Shown piece after piece: positions 10,904-32,292 of a DNA stretch of 32,292 nt. Source of the DNA: Deltaproteobacteria bacterium (GTDB lineage Bacteria > UBA10199 > SPLOWO2-01-44-7). A model generated the notes under the pieces. The model was not told the DNA's origin. It did no database searches and was given only the letters and a program-made list of their open reading frames with translations. The stretch is from positions 1-32,292 of the forward strand of contig JAUSII010000101.1 in NCBI GenBank assembly GCA_030648035.1, in the 5' to 3' direction. Each line of letters begins with the position of its first letter. Position 1 is the first letter of the stretch. The position numbers and the translations under genes are program-made.

Positions 10904-10907
10904 CATT

Positions 10908-11011
10908 CCTTCTCCCCTTGTGGGAGAAGGTGGCCGAAGGCCGGATGAGGGGGATACATTGTCTTCATATGTTTTCCCCTCACCCTAACCCTCTCCCACA
11001 AGGGGAGAGGG
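10908..11011. repeat. REP-like double palindrome between convergent genes
   Basis: Two hairpins flank the element. CCTTCTCCCCTTGTGGGAG runs from 10908 into AAGG at 10930, and CCCTCTCCCACAAGGGGAG runs from 10989 into AGGG at 11011. The inner arms GGATGAGGGG and CCCCTCACCC are also complementary. The sequence type is widespread in bacterial intergenic regions. Placed between convergent genes, it may also act as a bidirectional terminator. Confidence 0.85.
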
Positions 11012-11036
11012 AAATTAAAATGAAATCAAATTCTGC

Positions 11037-11600
11037 TCAATGATTGGCCAGTGCGTAGTGGAGGCCGATGGCGATGGGGTCGGGGTAGAAGGGATAGGGA
11101 GCGGCTTGATGGACGGTCTGTTGTGCCACGGTGTCGAGCATATCGGAACCGGAGGTTTGTTTTAGACGGACATATTCTATCGATCCATCTTTTTTGATTT
11201 TAAATTCCACCACCGGTGATCCTTCAATCCCCTGACGTTTGGCTGTGAGTGGATAAAATTTGGCCCGTTCGATCTTGCTTCGAATCTGCCGCATGATTTC
11301 GGAGTCTCCCCCTTCGCCACCGTTGCCACCGGAATTATATTTGTCATCCTGAGGCTTCGCCGAAGGATCCCGATGTTCAGCGGGATTCTTCGCTTCGCTC
11401 AGAATGACAACATGGTTTTCCGTATCCACCAACGACACCGAAATAAAGCTGGCGCCGGGTTGGCCGAGCGCGCGCGTTTCCTGCACATGATTATAAATTC
11501 CAAACGACAGGAGCCCCAACAAAACTCCGTGCGCCAACAGGGCGACACAGAGAGACGGGGTCAGATGGAGGCGGTTTGAACCGGTTTTTCTTGGAGCCAT
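11037..11600 (-). CDS. tonB: TonB-family energy transducer
   Basis: The protein has 187 residues. A short cytoplasmic N-terminus is followed by one membrane anchor ('LCVALLAHGVLLGLLSFGIY', about 17-36) and a periplasmic linker. The C-terminal TonB domain ('KIERAKFYPLTAKRQGIEGS', 'VVEFKIKKDGSIEYVRLKQT', 'PYPFYPD') fits the receptor-binding fold. It would couple inner-membrane proton motive force to the receptor encoded three genes upstream. The ATG at 11600 overlaps the preceding gene by 40 bp and places the anchor close to the N-terminus. The alternative start at 11696 adds 32 residues of out-of-frame overlap and is less likely. Residues 65-87 are encoded by an inserted palindromic repeat. 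No ExbB/ExbD genes are in the window. Confidence 0.85.
   Translation of the reverse strand: MAPRKTGSNRLHLTPSLCVALLAHGVLLGLLSFGIYNHVQETRALGQPGASFISVSLVDTENHVVILSEAKNPAEHRDPSAKPQDDKYNSGGNGGEGGDSEIMRQIRSKIERAKFYPLTAKRQGIEGSPVVEFKIKKDGSIEYVRLKQTSGSDMLDTVAQQTVHQAAPYPFYPDPIAIGLHYALANH
11343..11408. repeat. Palindromic repeat (GTCATYCTGAG family) inside tonB
   Basis: The element begins GTCATCCTGAG and ends CAGAATGAC, with GGATCCCG in the middle. It is the same family as 25928-25994. It is read in frame within tonB and contributes the peptide SEAKNPAEHRDPSAKPQDD to the linker. Confidence 0.85.
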
Positions 11601-12109
11601 GCGCCCGCTTTCTCGATGGCCACGAACAGACCGAAAGACCAGAGAAGATCTCCCGCGAACGTGTTCTGCAAAAATGGAAGCGCCATCGCGTAACACTCCA
11701 GAAGACCGGCAACCGTTTTGGGATACATTCCCTGCGAGAGCCAGACGCCAAAATTGGTAACGGCAAAAAATTGCAGACTGCCGACGATGCTGAAGGCTCC
11801 CAGTTTGAGATAACGGTTGGAACCTTTAATGTGGGATCCCAGAAAAATGCTGATGGCGAATGCGCCGTAGATAAAAGGAGTGACCATCGACCAGGGTTCC
11901 ACGTGAAAAAAGAGTCCCAGAAGAGCATCGCTTAAGGCCATTGCCAGAAAAGGAACGACCCAGCGGGAAACCTTGTCGAGTTTTGCACCGCCTACCAAAG
12001 CCATCGCACCGACAGGTGTCATGTTGGCCGGATGCGGAATGAGACGCCCCAGCGTGGCGAGAATAATCAATGCGTTTGTAACCCAAGTTTGTTTCGATTC
12101 TGTTTTCAT
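11561..12109 (-). CDS. DUF6580-like integral membrane protein
   Basis: The protein has 182 residues and about five or six hydrophobic segments: 'NALIILATLGRLI', 'WVVPFLAMALSDALLGLFF', 'MVTPFIYGAFAISIFLG', 'GAFSIVGSLQFFAVTNFGVW', 'LLWSFGLFVAI'. The motif 'GRLIPHPANMTPVGAMALVG' near the N-terminus is typical of the DUF6580 family. That family resembles ECF-type S components and often sits beside TonB receptor genes. An inner-membrane transport role in the same uptake pathway is inferred. The ATG at 12109 follows a GGGGGAAAAT site. Start codons upstream lack such a site. It lies 43 bp downstream of the lipoprotein gene and overlaps tonB by 40 bp. Confidence 0.75.
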   Translation of the reverse strand: MKTESKQTWVTNALIILATLGRLIPHPANMTPVGAMALVGGAKLDKVSRWVVPFLAMALSDALLGLFFHVEPWSMVTPFIYGAFAISIFLGSHIKGSNRYLKLGAFSIVGSLQFFAVTNFGVWLSQGMYPKTVAGLLECYAMALPFLQNTFAGDLLWSFGLFVAIEKAGAWLQEKPVQTASI

Positions 12110-12152
12110 ATTTTCCCCCTGTTTTATTGTCCAATCCCCTAGCATTTTAAGA

Positions 12153-13415
12153 TTAGCGAATCAACGTCATAGATGCGGGATAAGCACCGACCGGAAATGG
12201 GCCTGCAATCTTTATCTCCGCTTTTGGGTCGAGAAGGATGAGTCCGCTATTTGCAGAGCTTCTCTCCGGTACCCAGAGCAATCCATTTTTGTCGACCAGC
12301 AGATCGGGAAGAAATCCCCCCGGGCTCAAATAAATATTTTTATTCACGACCGTTTTGTTTGTCGGATTGAAGGTGGCTACAATGTTGGCGTTGACTGTCA
12401 ACACCCCCAGTGTGTCGGAGACCAACCTTAAAGTGGAGAGATAGCCGCCAAAATCCTTGTCGTCGATGATGATTCCTTCTGTTTTGTTGGTCGCGGGATC
12501 GACCATTTCAATGCCGCCATAGGTGGTGTTCACATCGTTGTTAAAACTGGAATCAAAATAGCCGGTGTCGGTGATAAAAAGTTTTTTGAGGGTGCTGTTA
12601 TAGGCGATGTCGGTTGGATTGCGCCCTTTAAGAAGAATCGCCTGAACACCGGTTGTCGTCAGGTCGGCATCGATGACGGTGTTGGTACGGGTATCGACCA
12701 AAACGATCTTTCCCTCTGTCGTCGCCCCAAAATTTTTGGAGAGATCCTGCAATAATATATAAAGAGTATCTCCCACGAGCGCCATCTGTGCCGCCCGCGC
12801 CAGCGAATCGCCGTCGTTGTCGGCAAAAGGTTTGAGATCGATGGAGGCTTTGAGAGTTCCGGTGATTGGATCGACAATGAAGAGATCGTCTTTGTTGTTG
12901 GCATCGAGCTGGCTGTCGAGCCTGGTGATGAAGGCTTTGCCATTGGCCACGACCAGATCCTGCGGATTGCTTCCGGCTCCAACCGAATAATTGCCGACGA
13001 TTTTGAACGTCTCCGGGTTGATCGCCTGCACGGTGCCGGTGCGTCCGCGATTGACGGTGAAAAGAATTCCGCCAAAACTTTTGACGATCACATCGCTTGA
13101 GTCGGTCACCGCTTTGGCTTTTGCAACGGGATGCGGAGAGTTTAATCCGATGGTGGCGATGCTTCCGACCGGATCGCTGAAGAAGGCGGCGGCGGCAAAA
13201 ACATTTTCATCGGGACTCAAGTTCAGGCTGGAACCTTCCGCTTCAAGATTCGATGGAGAATCGTTATTCAATTGTTCGACGACGGAGCCACTGCCGCAGG
13301 CTTGTAACAAACAGCATGTCATTGCGAGAAGCCGAAGGCGACGAAGCAATCCAGATAGCACCGGGATTGCTTCGGCCCTTTGGGCCTCGCAATGACACAC
13401 TTGTTTGCATTTCAT
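12153..13415 (-). CDS. Lipoprotein with beta-propeller (YncE/YVTN-like) repeats
   Basis: From ATG 13415 the protein has 420 residues. GGAG upstream supports this start, and ATGA overlaps the receptor stop. A lipobox-like LLQAC places the lipidated Cys at residue 40. The segment before it (residues 7-33) is encoded by a palindromic repeat. A TTG at 13349 inside the repeat would give a more typical short signal (MLRRLRLLAMTCCLLQAC). After the Cys come repeated beta-propeller blades: 'GTVQAINPETFKIVGNYSVG', 'DDLFIVDPITGTLKASI', 'KIVLVDTRTNTVI', 'KLFITDTGYFD'. This is the architecture of YncE-like surface or periplasmic proteins. Being between a TonB receptor and a DUF6580 protein suggests ligand capture or receptor support. 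The ligand is unknown. Confidence 0.8.
   Translation of the reverse strand: MKCKQVCHCEAQRAEAIPVLSGLLRRLRLLAMTCCLLQACGSGSVVEQLNNDSPSNLEAEGSSLNLSPDENVFAAAAFFSDPVGSIATIGLNSPHPVAKAKAVTDSSDVIVKSFGGILFTVNRGRTGTVQAINPETFKIVGNYSVGAGSNPQDLVVANGKAFITRLDSQLDANNKDDLFIVDPITGTLKASIDLKPFADNDGDSLARAAQMALVGDTLYILLQDLSKNFGATTEGKIVLVDTRTNTVIDADLTTTGVQAILLKGRNPTDIAYNSTLKKLFITDTGYFDSSFNNDVNTTYGGIEMVDPATNKTEGIIIDDKDFGGYLSTLRLVSDTLGVLTVNANIVATFNPTNKTVVNKNIYLSPGGFLPDLLVDKNGLLWVPERSSANSGLILLDPKAEIKIAGPFPVGAYPASMTLIR
13318..13396. repeat. Palindromic repeat (GTCATTGCGAG family) in lipoprotein 5' end
   Basis: The element starts GTCATTGCGAGAAGCCGAAG and ends GGGCCTCGCAATGAC, so its ends are inverted copies. An internal GAAGCAATCC pairs with GGGATTGCTTC. 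It is the same family as 23557-23637 and 27796-27891. It lies entirely inside the first 33 codons of the lipoprotein gene. Confidence 0.9.
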
Positions 13416-15394
13416 AATCTCAACTCCAACTCTCCCCAATACGATCTTCCCGGAAGGGGAAATCCGGCAATATCGACTGTCTGGTCGTTTAGCAAGTTTT
13501 TCGTGGTGAAGGTTATTTTGCACCAGTCGGCCGGTTTGAGGTGAAGGCCCAGTGAAACGAGTGTGCGGCTGGTCACTTTGAGCAGATTTTGCGAGTCGAG
13601 ATAGTTGTCGCTCAAATACTGAACCTGGCCAAAAGGTTGGAGCATGCGATATTCATAACTCGCCTCCATATAAGCCTGGTTTTTGGGACGCCCCGGAAGA
13701 AATTTTCCTCGTGTGGGGGAATTGTCGGCGTCATCCTTGGCGCTTTGATAAATATAATTTCCGTTCCAGCGAAAATGTTTGAAGATTTGCAGGCCCACTG
13801 CAAATTCACCTCCCGTAATCTGTGCCCCATTCAGATTTTCCGCTTTGGCGGTGAACTGGGAGTTTTGCAGATATTGAATCAGGTTGCTGGTGTTTTGTCT
13901 GAAGAGGGTTGCCTCTGCAAAGAGATGATCGAATTTCCAGAAATTATTCCACCGCCCCGATATTCCAAAATCAAAATTGAAACCCTCTTCGGGTTTGAGG
14001 GATGGGTTGCCGACAAAGGTTCCCCGGTCGCCGAAGAGTTCGTTGAAAGTGGGCTGGCGAAAGCCGTGATAAAAATTTCCCTTGAAACTCAAAAAGGGCC
14101 ACGGAGAAATTTTGGCCCCGACTTTTGCCGAGAGTTCGGTGTTGGTGATGTTGTTGTCGGGCGTGGCCACGGCGACCCCCGGATTTTGTCCGCTCAAACG
14201 ATTCACAAATATTTGCAGACGGAGCGACGGGTCGATCACAATTTTTTCATCCATGAGGGTAATTTCATTTTCGGCCCCCAGTCCCACCATGTGCCGCCAG
14301 CTGGTGGGGCCGTCTGCGGGTGTGATGTTGTAATTGGTCGGCAGAAAAGTCTCGATGCGATAAGCTATAAAACCGCTTAACAGTTGATTGTCCGTGGGGG
14401 CCCAATCGAGATGAAATTCGGGACCCCCTCTCAAAGTTTTATCGTTGTTGTCCTGCACACCGAGGCCGATCTGCCCGCTGGGATCGTGAAAGCGGTTGTC
14501 GAGATAATCAAAAAAAAGATCGGCGTTCCAGTCGACGCCCCTTGCAGAAGGGGTGGGGCCATCCAGTTTTGCGTGGATAAAATTGCGGAGTGTTTCGAGG
14601 CGGGCCGAGGTTGAGAGAAAAGAACCGAGCCCGGGAATCCCCTGTTCCTTGGCAAAAAAGTTTTCGAATATTTTGAAGTTGATTTCATCTTTTTTGTCAC
14701 TTCCGAAAATACCGGTGAAATTATAATTTTTAAAATCGTTGTTGGCCCGATCGACCACCTGATCGTCATTCACGTTGGAGCGGGTTCCCTGATCGTTCAC
14801 ATAGGGAAAATTGCCCCGGCTTCTGAAATAATCAAACGCGGCGGTATAGTAGAGATCGTTGATGGGCTGGCTTCTCTGGATGTGGCCCCGATAAGTATAG
14901 AAAGAGCCGACCGAGTTGCGCAGAATATTTTCGGTCTTGTCCGGTTTGCCTTTGGTGTGAATGTAGATGACGCCGCCCGGAGTTGAGTCGACTATTTTGC
15001 CCGGTGCGCCGCCGCGATAAATTTCGATGCGGGCAATGTTGTCGAGTGGCAGAAAAGAGAGATCGACCGCTCCCCCCTCTGCCGAATTGATCAGAATGCC
15101 ATCGACATAAATCAAAACCTGTTCGGTGGTGGAGCCGCGAATCGAGACGGTGGAAAAATCGTCAAGCCCGCCGTAAGACTGCAGATGCACACCGGCGGCC
15201 CGCTCCAGAAGTTCCGGAACAGTTTGCGCAAAACCCTGAATTTTGGAAGGGATGATGACCTGTGTTCCGGCCACACTGTCGAATTGTGCCTCCGGCTGAT
15301 CTTGCACCTGAATATCAATGCGAGGCTCCGCCGCCCAGAGAGAAGTGGTGACCAAACAAATACAAAACACAAATTTCAAAGTGGCTTTTTGCAT
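13412..15394 (-). CDS. btuB: TonB-dependent outer membrane receptor, BtuB-like
   Basis: The protein has 660 residues. A signal peptide of about 21 residues (MQKATLKFVFCICLVTTSLW, then A|AEP) is followed by a plug domain: 'VPELLERAAGVHLQSYGGLD', 'STVSIRGSTTEQVLIYVDGI', 'IARIEIYRGGAP'. The rest is a beta-barrel with many short aromatic strands ending in 'YWGELELRL'. It would import a scarce ligand across the outer membrane using TonB. The plug resembles BtuB-type receptors, and a relative of a B12 enzyme diverges from the same gap. Cobalamin is the leading guess for the ligand, but no riboswitch supports it. A purine-rich GGAGGAGG lies about 15 bp before the ATG, which is unusually far. It overlaps the lipoprotein gene by 4 bp. 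Confidence 0.85.
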   Translation of the reverse strand: MQKATLKFVFCICLVTTSLWAAEPRIDIQVQDQPEAQFDSVAGTQVIIPSKIQGFAQTVPELLERAAGVHLQSYGGLDDFSTVSIRGSTTEQVLIYVDGILINSAEGGAVDLSFLPLDNIARIEIYRGGAPGKIVDSTPGGVIYIHTKGKPDKTENILRNSVGSFYTYRGHIQRSQPINDLYYTAAFDYFRSRGNFPYVNDQGTRSNVNDDQVVDRANNDFKNYNFTGIFGSDKKDEINFKIFENFFAKEQGIPGLGSFLSTSARLETLRNFIHAKLDGPTPSARGVDWNADLFFDYLDNRFHDPSGQIGLGVQDNNDKTLRGGPEFHLDWAPTDNQLLSGFIAYRIETFLPTNYNITPADGPTSWRHMVGLGAENEITLMDEKIVIDPSLRLQIFVNRLSGQNPGVAVATPDNNITNTELSAKVGAKISPWPFLSFKGNFYHGFRQPTFNELFGDRGTFVGNPSLKPEEGFNFDFGISGRWNNFWKFDHLFAEATLFRQNTSNLIQYLQNSQFTAKAENLNGAQITGGEFAVGLQIFKHFRWNGNYIYQSAKDDADNSPTRGKFLPGRPKNQAYMEASYEYRMLQPFGQVQYLSDNYLDSQNLLKVTSRTLVSLGLHLKPADWCKITFTTKNLLNDQTVDIAGFPLPGRSYWGELELRL

Positions 15395-23708: not shown

Positions 23709-24305
23709 ATGTTATCCAAAAGACAGAAGCAAATATTTGATTTTATTAGTAAATTTGTTGATGTTCACGCCTATGCCCCCAGCCTTGAAGAAATTGCTTC
23801 CCACTTCAAACTTTCCGCTGTTTCCACCGTTCATTACCATATCAGCGAGCTGATCAAAAAAGGGATGTTGGCCAAGCGCTGGAACGCGGGGCGCTCATTA
23901 GAAGTGGTGGGGCACACGGCATCACTCGCGGTGGTTGTCCCTCTGCTCGGTGTTATCGCCGCAGGCAAACCGATTGAAGCGATCGAACAGGAAGAGACAA
24001 TCGAGATTCCACCTTCATTGATGGGTCGCAAAGATACTTATGTTTTGCGCGTGCAGGGCGACTCGATGATTGAAGAACATATTCGTGATGGTGATTATGT
24101 CGTGGTGGAGCGCCGTGACACCGCCGATAACGGCGAAACGGTGGTGGCCCTTCTGAACGGCAACGAGGCGACGCTCAAAAAATTCTATCGCGAAAAAGAT
24201 CGCATCCGCCTGCAACCAGCCAATCCGACCATGTCGCCCATTTATGTTCGAGAAGAAGATTGCACCATTCAGGGTGTGGTGATTGCGATATTGAGGAAGT
24301 TCTAG
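23709..24305 (+). CDS. lexA: LexA SOS repressor
   Basis: The protein has 198 residues. The N-terminal winged helix ('LSKRQKQIFDFISKFVDVHA', 'APSLEEIASHFKLSAVSTVH') binds DNA. The cleavage site is Ala-Gly in 'LLGVIAAGKPIEA'. The catalytic Ser is in 'VQGDSMIEEHI' and the Lys in 'ATLKKFYRE', as in the LexA/UmuD S24 peptidase family. RecA-stimulated self-cleavage would derepress the SOS regulon. The ATG at 23709 matches the usual LexA N-terminus (MLSKRQ). The upstream alternative at 23667 would start before the promoter. The stop codon TAG (24303-24305) overlaps the first bases of the AGTGCGAT repeat. dinB lies downstream, beyond the inserted cassette. Confidence 0.96.
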   Translation: MLSKRQKQIFDFISKFVDVHAYAPSLEEIASHFKLSAVSTVHYHISELIKKGMLAKRWNAGRSLEVVGHTASLAVVVPLLGVIAAGKPIEAIEQEETIEIPPSLMGRKDTYVLRVQGDSMIEEHIRDGDYVVVERRDTADNGETVVALLNGNEATLKKFYREKDRIRLQPANPTMSPIYVREEDCTIQGVVIAILRKF

Positions 24306-24323
24306 TGCGATAGTGCGATGGTA

Positions 24324-24351
24324 CTTGGTACCTCGTACTTAGTACTTCGTG
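24324..24351 (+). repeat. Left 28-bp inverted repeat of the cassette
   Basis: It begins CTTGGTACCTCGTAC and ends TTAGTACTTCGTG, an exact reverse complement of 24718-24745. It is itself built from GTACTT-type units. Confidence 0.9.
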
Positions 24352-24749: not shown

Positions 24750-25928
24750 ATGATCAATTGTGACAAAAAACTAACCATTCGCCCGCGTGCGGTGGCAACG
24801 CCCATGCCGGGGCAGAGAACTTTTTTGCATGTCGATCTCGATGCTTTTTTTGCTTCCGTTGAACAGATCAAAAATCCAAAACTCAAAGGCAAACCGGTGA
24901 TTGTCGGCGGGCGCAATTCGCGGCGCGGTGTGGTGGCGGCCGCTTCTTATGAAGCCAAGCGCTGTGGTGTGACGACCGGCATGCCGTGGCTTGAAGCGCA
25001 ATCCAAATGTCCCAGCGCCGTTTTTTTGCCGGCCGATTTTGAGGCCTACGCCGAATATTCTGAAAAGGTTCAAAAAATTCTGGGGAAAATTGCGCCGGTG
25101 GTGGCGCAAGCCTCTGTGGACGAATCTTATCTCGACCTGACCGGTTGTCAGCGTCTCTACAAAACACCGCGGGAGGCGGGAGAAAAAATCTATCGGGCTG
25201 TGAAAGACCAGACAGGACTCTCCATCTCGATCGGCATTGCCGGTTCGCAGTCGGTGGCCAAGATGGCGTCCCGTTTGGCCAAGCCCAGGGGGATGGTGGA
25301 GATTCCGAAAGGGGCGGAGAAAAATTTTCTGGCATCTCTGCCGGTGGAGGCGATGCCCGGCATCGGTCCCCAGTTGGGGGAGAAGTTGCGCGGCATGGGG
25401 ATTGTCACATTGGGCCAACTGGCCAAAGTGCCGAACGATCTGCTTCGCGCCTCCTTTGGTGTGTATGGCCCCTTTCTTCGGGCGAAGGCGCGCGGGGAAG
25501 ATACCTGGGAACTGGAAGTGACCGAAACCATCAAATCGATCGGCAAACAGGAGACTTTTCCCGAAGATGTTCGTGATTTTGCGATTTTAAAACGCAAATT
25601 GTTCGAATTGGTCGAAAAAGTGGGGCAAAAATTGCGTGAAGAAAATCTTTACGCCCGCCGGGTGGCGGTGAAGGTGAGATACGCCGACTTTTCAGAAGAG
25701 GGGACCTCTAAAACATTCAGAGACCCGACCCATTTTGACCGTGTCTTGTTTCAATATGCCGAGGAGTTGCTCTCCAACACCGTTCGTCTTGAGCGTTCCA
25801 TCAGACTCATCGGTTTTTCAGTTCAAGAATTGAGTCAACAGACCCCCCAGCTCGATCTTTTCAGAACACCCAAGGCCGAACGGTGGGAGAGGTTTTATTC
25901 CAGCCTCGATAAAATTCGCTCCTTGTAG
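24750..25928 (+). CDS. dinB: DNA polymerase IV (Y-family translesion polymerase)
   Basis: The protein has 392 residues. 'FLHVDLDAFFASVEQIKNPK' holds the first catalytic Asp and the steric-gate region, and 'AQASVDESYLDLTG' holds the second catalytic acidic pair. 'SISIGIAGSQSVAKMASRLA' and the HhH motif 'AMPGIGPQLGEKLRGMG' follow. The C-terminal 'PQLDLFR' is a beta-clamp-binding motif. It performs error-prone bypass synthesis at lesions. Its placement after lexA suggests SOS control, although the cassette now separates them. The ATG at 24750 abuts the right repeat. An internal ATG at 24804 (MPGQRTF) would match the usual DinB N-terminus better but has no clear ribosome binding site. Confidence 0.95.
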   Translation: MINCDKKLTIRPRAVATPMPGQRTFLHVDLDAFFASVEQIKNPKLKGKPVIVGGRNSRRGVVAAASYEAKRCGVTTGMPWLEAQSKCPSAVFLPADFEAYAEYSEKVQKILGKIAPVVAQASVDESYLDLTGCQRLYKTPREAGEKIYRAVKDQTGLSISIGIAGSQSVAKMASRLAKPRGMVEIPKGAEKNFLASLPVEAMPGIGPQLGEKLRGMGIVTLGQLAKVPNDLLRASFGVYGPFLRAKARGEDTWELEVTETIKSIGKQETFPEDVRDFAILKRKLFELVEKVGQKLREENLYARRVAVKVRYADFSEEGTSKTFRDPTHFDRVLFQYAEELLSNTVRLERSIRLIGFSVQELSQQTPQLDLFRTPKAERWERFYSSLDKIRSL

Positions 25929-25994
25929 TCATTCTGAGCCAAAGGCGAAGAATCCCGCTGATCAACGGGATCCTTCACTAAAGTTCAGGATGAC
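25928..25994. repeat. Palindromic repeat (GTCATYCTGAG family) after dinB
   Basis: The element begins GTCATTCTGAGCC and ends TTCAGGATGAC, with AACGGGATCC in the middle. It is related to the copy inside tonB (11343-11408). Its first base is the last base of the dinB TAG stop codon. It may act as the dinB terminator. Confidence 0.85.
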
Positions 25995-26048
25995 AACGCG
26001 GTTTTCATGCTTGCACTCCTCCACAAATTTCGCTAGCTAACGCGCGTT

Positions 26049-26621
26049 ATGGGAGATCCAAGAATCAAAACAGAACCGCCAAGAAGCAAAGGGGCGAGAA
26101 CGGGAGAAACTCTTATTCCTGCAATTCCTCCAGCTTCGTCGCCAGCTCCATCCACACCGCCTGTTCCAGTCGATAGTTTTGACGGCAGTGGACTTGGAGA
26201 AGAATGCCGTGACAATGCGCCCGGATGGAACGATAGGGTTATGCTTTCCTATTTCCGCAACGCCTCTCCCGCAGAAATGCCGGTGCCAAGCCGTCAGCCG
26301 CCCCAAATGCCTCCGCCATTTTTTCCTCCCGGGAGGGATATAGGAAATGAAATTCGTTTTCCAAATCGTCCGGGCGTTGGCAACCCGGACCCCGGTTCCA
26401 TTCCCGATACGACAGACTGGTCTCCGCCTGGTGCTCCAAAGCCTTCCCGTGAAGAACCCCCGTTTTGGGCCCGCTTTGCTCTCGGTGCGGTGATGGTTAT
26501 CGGCTCTATTGCGGGCGCTTTTTTGACCGGCTTCGGCACCGCCGGCCCTTCTTTCAGCCCCGCCATTTTCACCGGCGCCACCCTCTATACCGGCAATCGT
26601 TTTTCCGATTCAGAGGCTTAA
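26049..26621 (+). CDS. Unknown proline-rich protein with C-terminal membrane segment
   Basis: The protein has 190 residues. About 145 N-terminal residues are Pro/Ser-rich and probably disordered ('IPPASSPAPSTPPVPV', 'PQMPPPFFPPG'). One or two hydrophobic Gly/Ala-rich segments follow ('FALGAVMVIGSIAGAFLTGF'). No family was recognised. The start is uncertain: no ribosome binding site is visible, and a 10-bp palindrome AACGCGCGTT touches the ATG. The last 17 codons and stop are duplicated exactly 1.17 kb downstream. The composition (few charged residues, high Pro) and lack of Shine-Dalgarno sequence leave some doubt that it is translated as drawn. Confidence 0.5.
   Translation: MGDPRIKTEPPRSKGARTGETLIPAIPPASSPAPSTPPVPVDSFDGSGLGEECRDNAPGWNDRVMLSYFRNASPAEMPVPSRQPPQMPPPFFPPGRDIGNEIRFPNRPGVGNPDPGSIPDTTDWSPPGAPKPSREEPPFWARFALGAVMVIGSIAGAFLTGFGTAGPSFSPAIFTGATLYTGNRFSDSEA
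26566..26621 (+). repeat. 56-bp direct repeat, copy 1 (3' end of unknown gene)
   Basis: It is identical over 56 bp to 27735-27790. It covers the last 17 codons (FTGATLYTGNRFSDSEA) and stop of the proline-rich gene. Confidence 0.95.
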
Positions 26622-26662
26622 TACTTCGTACCGGGCGCCTTAAAAAAAAATTAAAAAAGTAC

Positions 26663-26705: not shown

Positions 26706-27707
26706 ATGATCATTCCAAATGCTCCACTTCAATCTTTAAGTTATTTTTCAGGAAGTGCTTTAGCATCTGTTGGAGCTCCTCTTGATGGCAGCTATACAGT
26801 CGTCTCCATCGGTTTGGATAATGGGGTATCTGTTGAAGAATTGACGCCCCCTGTCGACCCTCGTGATTTTAGTTCAAACAATCGGCTCTATAAACTTAGA
26901 GGAGAGCGGGATATGCTTTTGGTTCCGGGACGTCGTTTGTGGATTTATGGGGCAAACCGTTTTCGCAGTACATTGATACCTGAAGATTCCCAAGCAATGC
27001 TTGTCGTTTCCGGAAACCGTGAAGTGATGCTGAAACATCCCACGCGTCAGGAACCGTCTTCCGATTCTGTTTCAGATCCAAGGTCCATTTTTATTCGGGA
27101 ATATGATCGAAAAGTGGCCGACTATTTTTTTCGATTTGTTTCGGATTCGCCAGATGAAACAGGTGTCCCAATTTGTTTGAATTTTCCCATTTATCGCATT
27201 CGAGAAGGAATAGACGCAGTCTTGCGAGCGGTTTTTCTGGATCAGATGTCCGATGCATCTATTGCCAGGTATTTTGGTCATTATCTCCTACTGTCCCCCA
27301 ATTTGATGGTTGCTATCGATAATGGTCAGAATGATGTTTTTGCAGATCCCGAAAATCCCAATGTTACTATCTCGTTTATGGGAGATTCTGCTTCCGTAAT
27401 CAGAATTCTGGAGACTGGTCTGCATATTTTAGGTGGTTCCTTGGAAGATATTCGAGGCCTTGTCTATCAAGACATTGAATTTCATCCCCTTCCCATAATA
27501 GGGAGTATGTCGCGTGATTTGCTTTTTGGAGATCAGCGCATTGTTACAGGCGCCTCTCTGCTTTATCCCACGTCCTATACGCGGGCTGTTGACGAGCCTG
27601 AAATTCAGCACACTATGAGTTTTGCAAATGTTATGATGAGGATTCCTTTTGGTCAACGGGCCGCCGCATTTTCTCTCTTTAAAGAATTGTTCCAAAAACT
27701 GACGTAA
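26706..27707 (+). CDS. Unknown protein, 333 residues
   Basis: TAGGG five bases before the ATG supports the start. The protein has no signal peptide or clear membrane segment. Recognisable stretches are 'VVSIGLDNGVSVEELTPPVD', 'RDMLLVPGRRLWIYGANRF', 'EYDRKVADYFFRFVSDSPDE' and 'FHPLPIIGSMSRDLLFGDQR'. I do not recognise the family. The gene is visibly AT-richer than its neighbours and lies wholly between two 56-bp direct repeats. It has its own sigma-28-like promoter, so it may have been acquired as a unit. Confidence 0.75.
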   Translation: MIIPNAPLQSLSYFSGSALASVGAPLDGSYTVVSIGLDNGVSVEELTPPVDPRDFSSNNRLYKLRGERDMLLVPGRRLWIYGANRFRSTLIPEDSQAMLVVSGNREVMLKHPTRQEPSSDSVSDPRSIFIREYDRKVADYFFRFVSDSPDETGVPICLNFPIYRIREGIDAVLRAVFLDQMSDASIARYFGHYLLLSPNLMVAIDNGQNDVFADPENPNVTISFMGDSASVIRILETGLHILGGSLEDIRGLVYQDIEFHPLPIIGSMSRDLLFGDQRIVTGASLLYPTSYTRAVDEPEIQHTMSFANVMMRIPFGQRAAAFSLFKELFQKLT

Positions 27708-27734: not shown

Positions 27735-27790
27735 TTTTCACCGGCGCCACCCTCTATACCGGCAATCGTTTTTCCGATTCAGAGGCTTAA
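27735..27790 (+). repeat. 56-bp direct repeat, copy 2 (orphan gene 3' end)
   Basis: An exact copy of 26566-26621 without the upstream gene. Within the 240-bp gap 27708-27947 it is followed at once by a GTCATTGCGAG palindrome. Confidence 0.95.
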
Positions 27791-27795
27791 CAATT

Positions 27796-30122: not shown

Positions 30123-30197
30123 TGCGATGGTGCGATAGTGCTTAGTACTTGGTGCGAATATAAATCTAAGTACCAAGTACTATCGCACTATCGCACT
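30121..30197. repeat. AGTGCGAT-family palindrome between nuoE and nuoF
   Basis: The 77-bp element has 32-bp imperfect inverted arms. The left arm starts AGTGCGATGGTGCGATAGTG at the nuoE stop and the right arm ends CTATCGCACTATCGCACT. The arms contain GTACTTGG-type cores also found in the cassette repeats. Only 8 bp remain before the nuoF ATG, so the usual ribosome binding site region is largely replaced by repeat. Confidence 0.92.
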
Positions 30198-30205
30198 GAT
30201 AAATT

Positions 30206-31495
30206 ATGGAACAAATTTTAAGCAAAAGTTGGCGCATTGTGAATCAACGCAACATGGACGTCGCTTTGATGCACGGCGCCTATGATTCGCTCAAGAAAAT
30301 TTTCAAGATGACTCCGGCCGAAGTAACCGAGACGGTTAAAGCCTCCGGCCTGCGCGGGCGCGGGGGGGCCGGTTTTTCCACTGGCACCAAGTGGACGTTT
30401 ATTCCCAAAGACAATAAGAAGCCGGTTTATCTTATTAATAATTTCGACGAGAGCGAACCCGGCACTTTCAAGGATCGTGCGATTGCGGAGAAAGATCCGC
30501 ACATGATGATCGAGGGGATGATCATCGCCTCTTATGCGATCGGCGCCAACACCGCCTATATCTATATTCGCGGGGAATATTATCGCCAGTGGGAGATTAT
30601 TGAAAAAGCGTTGGCCGAGGCTTATGCAAAAGGTTTTCTGGGAAAAAATATTCAAGGCTCCGGATTTCATCTCGATATTTTTCAACATCGCGGAGCGGGG
30701 GCCTACATTTGCGGCGAAGAGACGGCGCTTCTCTCATCTCTCGAAGGAGGAAGAGGTTATCCAAGAATCAAACCGCCCTTTCCGGCGATCGAGGGGGCGT
30801 GGCGCTCGCCAACCATTGTGAATAACGTCGAGACTCTGACCAATCTTCCCTACATCATCAATAATGGTGCGGATGCTTTCAAAAAATTCGGGACCGAAAA
30901 AAGTCCCGGCACCAAACTGATTTCGGCCTCGGGCCATATTGAAAAACCGGGTGTTTATGAAGTGGCGATGGGATTGCCGATCCACACTTTTTTAAACGAA
31001 CAGCTGGGCGGCATCTGGAAGGGTCGCAAACTCAAAGCGCTGGTGCCGGGCGGTTCGTCGTTTCCCGTGCTTACGGCAGACGAGGCGCTCAAAACAAATA
31101 TCGATTTTGAATCTTGCGCGGCGAGCGGCACATCGCTCGGCTCCGGCGGTTTTTATGTGATGGACGACACGACCTGCATGGTGCGCATGCTGATGTTCAC
31201 CGCAAAATTTTATGAACACGAGTCGTGCGGACAATGCACGCCGTGCCGCGAGGGGACCGGCTGGGTTTCGCAAATCGTGCGGCGTATTGAGGAAGGTCAT
31301 GGACGCGAACGCGATCTGCAAGTATTGCTCGATGTCTGTAATAATATGATGAACGGTCGCACCATCTGCGTTTTTGCCGACGCCCTGGCCATGCCGGTCA
31401 TCAGCTATCTGACAAAGTTTAAACACGAGTTTGAGGATCACGTGAGACTGGGGAGATGTCCGATGAGCGGGAAGTGCGATAGTGCGATGGTGTGA
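30206..31495 (+). CDS. nuoF: NADH-quinone oxidoreductase subunit F (NADH/FMN binding)
   Basis: The protein has 429 residues. 'LRGRGGAGFSTGTKWTF' binds FMN and 'HRGAGAYICGEETALLSSLE' belongs to the NADH/FMN site. 'ESCGQCTPCREGT' plus a later Cys hold the N3 4Fe-4S cluster. It oxidises NADH and passes electrons to NuoE/NuoG. No Shine-Dalgarno site lies in the 8 bp between the upstream repeat and the ATG. The last seven residues (KCDSAMV) and the stop codon are encoded by the downstream repeat, so the native C-terminus has been altered. Confidence 0.97.
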   Translation: MEQILSKSWRIVNQRNMDVALMHGAYDSLKKIFKMTPAEVTETVKASGLRGRGGAGFSTGTKWTFIPKDNKKPVYLINNFDESEPGTFKDRAIAEKDPHMMIEGMIIASYAIGANTAYIYIRGEYYRQWEIIEKALAEAYAKGFLGKNIQGSGFHLDIFQHRGAGAYICGEETALLSSLEGGRGYPRIKPPFPAIEGAWRSPTIVNNVETLTNLPYIINNGADAFKKFGTEKSPGTKLISASGHIEKPGVYEVAMGLPIHTFLNEQLGGIWKGRKLKALVPGGSSFPVLTADEALKTNIDFESCAASGTSLGSGGFYVMDDTTCMVRMLMFTAKFYEHESCGQCTPCREGTGWVSQIVRRIEEGHGRERDLQVLLDVCNNMMNGRTICVFADALAMPVISYLTKFKHEFEDHVRLGRCPMSGKCDSAMV

Positions 31496-31558
31496 TGGTG
31501 CGATAGTACTTGGTGCAAATATCAATCTAAGTACCAAGTACCATCGCACTATCGCACT
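31473..31558. repeat. AGTGCGAT-family palindrome spanning the nuoF stop codon
   Basis: The 86-bp element starts AGTGCGATAGTGCGATGG and ends CCATCGCACTATCGCACT. The left arm holds four 8-bp RGTGYGAT units, more than the nuoE-nuoF copy. The element includes the nuoF stop (31493-31495) and ends 8 bp before the nuoG ATG, the same distance as at nuoF. Confidence 0.92.
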
Positions 31559-31566
31559 CAAGAATT

Positions 31567-32292
31567 ATGATTAAGATTAAAATCGACAATAAGGAAATAG
31601 AAGTGGCGGAGGGTTCCACGGTTTTGCAGGCGGCGCTCGCCAACAAAATCGAGGTCCCCTATTTCTGCTATCATCGCAAACTCTCGATCGCGGGCAATTG
31701 TCGCATGTGTCTGGTCAATGTGAAGGGTTCCAATAAGCCGGTGATTTCGTGCCGCGAACGGGTGCGCGAGGGGATGGAAGTCGACGCCTCTTCGCCGGTC
31801 GTCAAAAAAATGCAGCAGGGTGTTCTGGAATTTATTCTGGTCAACCATCCTCTCGATTGTCCCATCTGCGATCAATCGGGCGAATGCGATTTGCAGGATA
31901 ACTATTTCAAATTCTCAAAATTTCCATCGCGTCTCGAAGACAAAAAAGTCCACAAACCCAAAGCCGTGCCACTGGGACCGCTGGTGACTTTGGATGATGA
32001 GCGTTGCATTGTCTGCACGCGATGCGTCCGTTTTTGCGATGAGATTGCCGGTACCCACGAGTTGTGTGTGACCCAGCGCGGTGGACATTCCGAACTGCGC
32101 ACCTATCCCGGCAAAGAATTAAACAATCCCTATTCTCTCTGCACCGTTGATGTCTGTCCGGTGGGGGCGCTGACCTCGACCGATTTCCGTTTTAAAAAAC
32201 GGGTCTGGTTTTTAAAAACAACAAATTCCATTTGTACCGGTTGCGCCACCGGCTGTAACATCAAAATGGATTGGAATGATGCGGCGGTTTAT
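31567..32292 (+). CDS. nuoG: NADH-quinone oxidoreductase subunit G, 3' end outside window
   Basis: The frame is open from the ATG at 31567 to the window edge (242 codons). 'MIKIKIDNKEIEVAEGSTVL' and 'PYFCYHRKLSIAGNCRMCLV' form the N-terminal 2Fe-2S ferredoxin domain. 'HPLDCPICDQSGECDLQDNY' binds the N5-type cluster, and 'CIVCTRCVRFCDEIAG' plus 'VDVCPVGALTS' bind a further 4Fe-4S cluster. 'ICTGCATGCNIKM' begins the molybdopterin oxidoreductase-like region with Cys ligands for another cluster. It is the large iron-sulfur subunit of the complex I peripheral arm. The start has no visible Shine-Dalgarno site because the repeat ends 8 bp upstream. Confidence 0.95.
   Translation, partial: MIKIKIDNKEIEVAEGSTVLQAALANKIEVPYFCYHRKLSIAGNCRMCLVNVKGSNKPVISCRERVREGMEVDASSPVVKKMQQGVLEFILVNHPLDCPICDQSGECDLQDNYFKFSKFPSRLEDKKVHKPKAVPLGPLVTLDDERCIVCTRCVRFCDEIAGTHELCVTQRGGHSELRTYPGKELNNPYSLCTVDVCPVGALTSTDFRFKKRVWFLKTTNSICTGCATGCNIKMDWNDAAVY

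Follow-up and report, generated by a model that had tools for sequence, protein, structure and literature searches.

What is a dispersed palindromic DNA repeat doing inside the reading frame of a tonB gene, and is the gene still intact with the repeat in it? The question was raised by the window, by which we mean the whole stretch of 32,292 nt analysed here, from a deltaproteobacterial draft genome (G000; 2.39 Mb, 135 contigs, 95.89% complete, 5.84% contamination). A first-pass annotation had described a palindromic element that is read through in tonB as 22 codons at 11343-11408, and sequence and frame both bear this out. The features needed for the argument are given below in window coordinates.

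10906..11013, just past the tonB stop: C-type inverted repeat (CTCTCCC..GGGAGAG), of the same type as a repeat in a histidine kinase linker (L123)
11037..11600, minus strand: tonB, 187 aa, ATG at 11600; the repeat makes up residues 65-86, between the anchor and TonB_C
11341..11410, minus strand: A-type dispersed palindromic repeat, 70 nt, ends TTGTCAT/ATGACAA, recognised by its fold and genome matches
11561..12145, minus strand: DUF6580 (PF20221) gene, upstream of tonB and overlapping its start
12153..13415, minus strand: putative lipoprotein gene, N-terminal (signal) region encoded by a B-type repeat, no Pfam match
13317..13397, minus strand: B-type sister repeat, in-frame reading CHCEAQRAEAIPVLSGLLRRLRLLAMT, closely followed by a lipobox-like LLQAC
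13412..15394, minus strand: TonB-dependent receptor gene (Plug PF07715, beta-barrel PF00593), its stop overlapping the lipoprotein ATG
25925..25996, plus strand: second A-type copy of the window, where ORF 24750-25928 ends

The segment of 66 nt (minus strand, 11408..11343) has the form GTCATTCTGAG..CTCAGGATGAC, starts on a codon and encodes the 22 residues VILSEAKNPAEHRDPSAKPQDD; one peptide that would cross the repeat in the predicted TonB product is NPAEHRDPSAKPQDDK. The annotation was right that an in-frame repeat peptide exists, but it gave 19 residues and left out VIL. It had also pointed to the length as a multiple of three, and the segment is indeed exactly 22 codons, although this depends on the chosen ends: the palindrome is imperfect, and its symmetrical termini TTGTCAT..ATGACAA extend past the 66 nt to span 70 nt (11341-11410), so that divisibility by three follows from the choice of ends. 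Folded as RNA, the repeat reaches -35.2 kcal/mol, whereas shuffled sequences average -17.6 (z -5.1), and none of 200 shuffles was as good.

Both sides of the repeat belong to a recognisable protein. Pfam TonB_C matches the 187-aa product at residues 114-174 (E 8.6e-14), the anchor and the C-terminal domain align in frame with orthologues, no stop interrupts the frame, and the architecture is complete, with an N-terminal membrane anchor, a linker, TonB_C and a receptor gene as the third gene upstream. The position proposed for the repeat, between the membrane anchor and the C-terminal domain of an intact TonB, is thereby confirmed, and the disruption of the gene that the annotation had held up as a counter-case is not seen. 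In a single-sequence structure model (mean pLDDT 46) the anchor helix at residues 15-45 is confident, while the low values in the linker are uninformative on disorder because the known C-terminal domain has low values as well. The gene closes a same-direction run of TonB-dependent receptor, putative lipoprotein, DUF6580 and tonB. Within this run the lipoprotein's signal region comes from a B-type repeat (..GLLRRLRLLAMTCCLLQACGSG..) directly after the start codon.

Other repeats are present in the window. A further family is found at 24302-24331, 30143-30208 and 31504-31569 (GTGCGATAGTGCGAT / GTACTTGGTAC), with inverted copies nearby, and a 61-nt direct repeat occurs at 26566-26626 and 27735-27795 with 97% identity; its two copies lie where the neighbouring ORFs 26049-26621 and 26706-27707 end or shortly beyond, and may be a partial duplication.

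The tonB repeat, which we call type A (TGTCATTCTGAG..CTCAGGATGACA), has 34 matches in the source genome at E <= 1e-3, and its sister type B is more abundant, with 62 matches among the 40 of 137 candidates scored; some copies are counted on both strands in either figure. Side-by-side copies reveal that the two types (A with ..CTGAG.., B with ..TGCGAG..) are related and have the common ends TGTCAT/ATGACA, and one copy (L038) is an A/B chimera. A merged scan of 57 stretches around the matches together with the window gave 72 rows, at least two of which record the same place twice, L034 being in the window. Full-length copies measure 64 to 96 nt, and 16 of the 54 have lengths that are multiples of three as delimited here. 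The stop-free frame emphasised in the annotation is real, yet ordinary for this repeat, as 119 of 324 frames over the 54 full-length copies are free of stops and one or more open frames exist in 52 of these copies; an open frame alone is therefore no evidence of adaptation. Short, multi-copy, built as an inverted repeat and without a gene of its own, the element is MITE-like by its A/B matches and hairpin. Inspection by eye of the flanks of aligned copies and of the tonB copy, with no empty site for comparison, revealed no obvious target-site duplication. We also considered a RAYT as the mobiliser of the repeat, and set it aside on the finding that PF01797 (Y1_Tnp), which we take to be the RAYT transposase family, has no match in the draft source genome, while the same search was positive in 5 of 14 control genomes.

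The class is represented by 46 genomes, six of which, the source genome included, belong to one family, with no second genome of the same genus. The segment is not common to all orthologues, a possibility raised in the annotation: no type A element was seen in tonB of the other five family genomes, where the linker of one (G004) is unreadable as the contig starts there, and none of the relatives shares it in the TonB linker. An exact empty site was not found among the class genomes, whose linkers are too diverged.

The description of the repeat as otherwise intergenic did not survive, as UvrD-, TruB- and TilS-like genes, hybrid histidine kinases and signal-peptide-like regions also contain pieces of type A or B. 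Half an A-type element lies in the UvrD-like gene (L042:2001-2033), where it accounts for about 11 residues in the N-terminal helicase domain and coincides with a 9-residue gap in PcrA (1pjr). Another half A-type element in TruB (L054) yields 10-11 repeat-like residues against an alignment difference of only 5 residues, for which reason replacement rather than clean insertion is possible there, judging from the alignment. A short B piece is present in a PP-loop (TilS-like) protein (L057). Four further ORFs (L096, L098, L107, L063) run over repeats with their Pfam domain downstream of the repeat, so the repeat may just precede the true start in these cases. At L058:196-2058 (minus) a B repeat, read as MSLRAKRSNPVASRWIASSLMLLAMTTMFATTAVAE, supplies the signal-like start of another ORF.

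TonB linkers were then compared across the class in 40 TonB loci from 39 genomes, a few of the linkers being cut or partly delimited and 38 having at least 200 nt. Six candidate linkers, picked by a palindrome or a repeat-like peptide, were each searched against their own genome, and all six carry repeats that are dispersed there. In total, 7 of 40 loci (7 of 39 genomes) have a dispersed repeat in the TonB linker, a lower bound since the genome searches covered the candidate linkers only. Matches in the own genome number 34 in G000, 15 in G029, 45 in G008, 35 in G005, 27 in G003, 38 in G042 and 10 in G001. The repeats are of type A in G000, B-like in G003 and G005, of the GAGCTTGTCGAAGG-type in G042, and a long, GC-rich palindrome of 129 nt in G001, while those of G008 and G029 have GGATCCC/GGGATGACA arms and may be related, so that we count about five kinds. 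The earlier suggestion that the linker tolerates insertions is strengthened by these other repeats in the TonB linkers of other genomes. Whether such linkers hold more repeats than other coding DNA was less clear-cut: palindromes with an arm score of at least 12 occur in 3 of 38 TonB linkers versus 2 of 174 coding control windows (p 0.04, a weak difference), and above that score in 1 of 38 versus 0 of 174, in a test that misses interrupted repeats such as the window's own tonB copy. When 39 loci were scanned with a repeat library, TonB ORFs (25.6 kb) yielded 6 matches, five of which were sequences that had gone into the library, and the other 92.5 kb yielded 6 short matches, three within long ORFs. 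The comparison is biased because the library was mostly drawn from TonB linkers. In view of the weak palindrome test and the biased library scan, what we claim is recurrence and not a proven excess.

A second linker behaves in the same way. Several repeat copies of the source genome fall in a family of hybrid histidine kinases, in the stretch from PKPLPKI to GYTVLVIDDD that connects two receiver domains. Among the kinases of the source genome, three contain type B (C67, C49, C66), one type A (C86) and one the CTCTCCC type C (C60); of the G003 kinases, one contains B and another a type D, which resembles the TonB repeat of G042; a kinase fragment of G005 has a B-like reading. At least four repeat types therefore occupy one receiver-receiver linker in paralogues and orthologues (kinase loci L121, L123, L125, L128, L129), types C and D being presumed to be dispersed because they match the C copy of the window and the G042 repeat, respectively. 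The two kinase copies of G002 (L120, L124) have a palindromic linker as well; a search of the available DNA gave no second copy of it, and we do not count them. Outside the family, a B-like linker was seen in G016 and a 16-nt remnant of an A arm in G009. The alignment comprises 16 loci out of 21 matches and displays no linker repeat in the kinases of G034, of G021 and in three copies of G024. Independent events will be fewer than genes here, since gene duplication surely accounts for the kinship of some B copies.

The fate of a linker repeat over time can be followed in G003 and G005, two species of one genus with an orthologous TonB linker repeat, decayed in G003, at 77% identity. The element has 100 nt in both and is in frame and stop-free. 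Over the three codon positions, the element has 9/6/10 differences, the N-terminal part of the gene 15/5/24 and the C-terminal part 18/13/52; with 34 codons, the element is a small sample. The frame is kept and, as far as these counts go, the sequence has been free to change, as expected for a neutral spacer.

Taken together, we propose, with a probability of roughly 85%, that a MITE- or REP-like non-coding repeat lies in the tonB linker and is read there as a neutral or near-neutral spacer, and that such linkers are repeated landing sites. A dispersed palindromic repeat of type A would have moved into the periplasmic-linker region of tonB, where transcription and translation would turn it into about 22 hydrophilic residues, translation through the repeat being argued from the one stop-free frame and a net change that preserves the frame. 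These residues would lengthen a presumably disordered spacer from the inner-membrane anchor to the C-terminal receptor-binding domain. The insertion was most likely neutral or nearly so, since the linker would need length and flexibility and not a particular sequence; for the same reason, TonB linkers and the receiver-receiver linkers of the kinases would serve as repeated landing sites for any repeat family in the genome. We are evenly divided on a wider proposal, according to which certain interdomain linkers in this class, the TonB spacer and the kinase receiver-receiver linker, are largely built from stray non-coding repeats, with successive unrelated families inserting at one linker or replacing one another there, and such repeats also supply signal-peptide regions.

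It might be asked whether selection, and not mere tolerance, has kept these insertions, the linker having needed reach and the repeats offering a ready-made hydrophilic spacer. Recurrence in the same TonB and kinase linkers would agree with this, as would the G003/G005 element with its preserved length (100 nt) and frame; tolerance, however, predicts recurrence equally, that element displays no sequence constraint, and 33 of the 40 TonB loci in the class are without a repeat confirmed here, so we regard an adaptive origin as unlikely. Equally doubtful is a single ancient linker repeat, inherited by all and then overwritten by gene conversion in place of many insertions. The kinase copies of one family are nearly all repeat-like at the same place, and the common ends of A and B (TGTCAT/ATGACA) and the one chimera (L038) could be read as traces of conversion, whereas types C and D and the 129-nt palindrome of G001 have no A/B similarity by which conversion could be guided, and the TonB copies of G003 and G005 have diverged to 77% and are not homogenised. 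Still less probable is that the DNA or RNA hairpin was kept and not the peptide, as an operon element for pausing or mRNA stability: the hairpin is strong (z -5.1) and its site falls within the receptor-lipoprotein-DUF6580-tonB run, but an Rfam search of the window gave no match, the hairpin comes with the repeat family as such, and the readable orthologous linkers have different hairpins or none. A decaying pseudogene or a misassembly can be dismissed, since in spite of the draft state of the assembly (135 contigs, 95.89% completeness, 5.84% contamination) and the false joins that repeats can cause, anchor and C-terminal domain are both in frame with the relatives' TonB without stops, and a misjoin by chance is implausible given that six other assemblies also have repeats in their TonB linkers.

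A non-coding repeat read in frame in this way is of a known kind, represented by the Rickettsia RPEs and the enterobacterial RU/ERIC elements. RPEs are described as dispersed palindromes, intergenic as well as in frame in conserved protein genes and apparently tolerated (PMC2229807, PMC10969869), with a length of 105-146 bp (PMC2229807) or about 150 bp (PMC10969869); according to the former, a gmk that carries an RPE is translated and yields an active product. In-frame insertion into an intact conserved gene, the RPE way of working, was found here for tonB, UvrD and the histidine kinases. Our repeats differ in their length of about 60-130 nt, in the bacterial class and in that several families occur in the same linker, and the likeness is one of description. 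Wolbachia palindromic repeats, to go by a reference title in PMC2229807, are similarly dispersed and also present in coding genes. The enterobacterial RU-1 (ERIC), RU-2 (YPAL) and RU-3 are likewise MITE-like, and their open frames join genes in frame, but a table in PMC2229807 lists target-site duplications for RU-1 and RU-2, whereas none is obvious by eye here; the RU paper (PMC2759123) has no mention of 'linker' or 'tonB'. The 107-bp Correia/NEMIS element of another host, again likened by description, has open frames fused to many ORFs (PMC2229807). Palindromic DNA also codes for protein segments in PARCELs, which according to PMC2996958 are tandem protein repeats of 25 residues, unlike the single dispersed non-coding repeats reported here. 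REP/RAYT systems are comparable in their short dispersed palindromes and differ from the present case, where the draft genome has no PF01797 match. In a 2024 review of prokaryotic MITEs, Rickettsia-like protein evolution by in-frame palindromes is called 'conceivable' in other prokaryotes (PMC10969869). The new part is the recurrence of unrelated repeats at one linker: the open-licence literature searched contained no report of repeats in TonB linkers, nor of unrelated repeats reusing one linker.

The locus thus adds a clear case of in-frame palindromes in a protein gene from another class, and it goes further in that each of two linkers has received repeats from several unrelated families and one TonB insertion has stayed in frame through the divergence of two species. 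It can now be asked, in a testable form, if linkers do no more than accommodate repeats or are made of them. Repeat-peptides such as SEAKNP are often a sign of a false ORF; that they can belong to a real protein is a warning for annotation. On the wider proposal above, dispersed DNA repeats would time and again furnish the material for disordered protein spacers.
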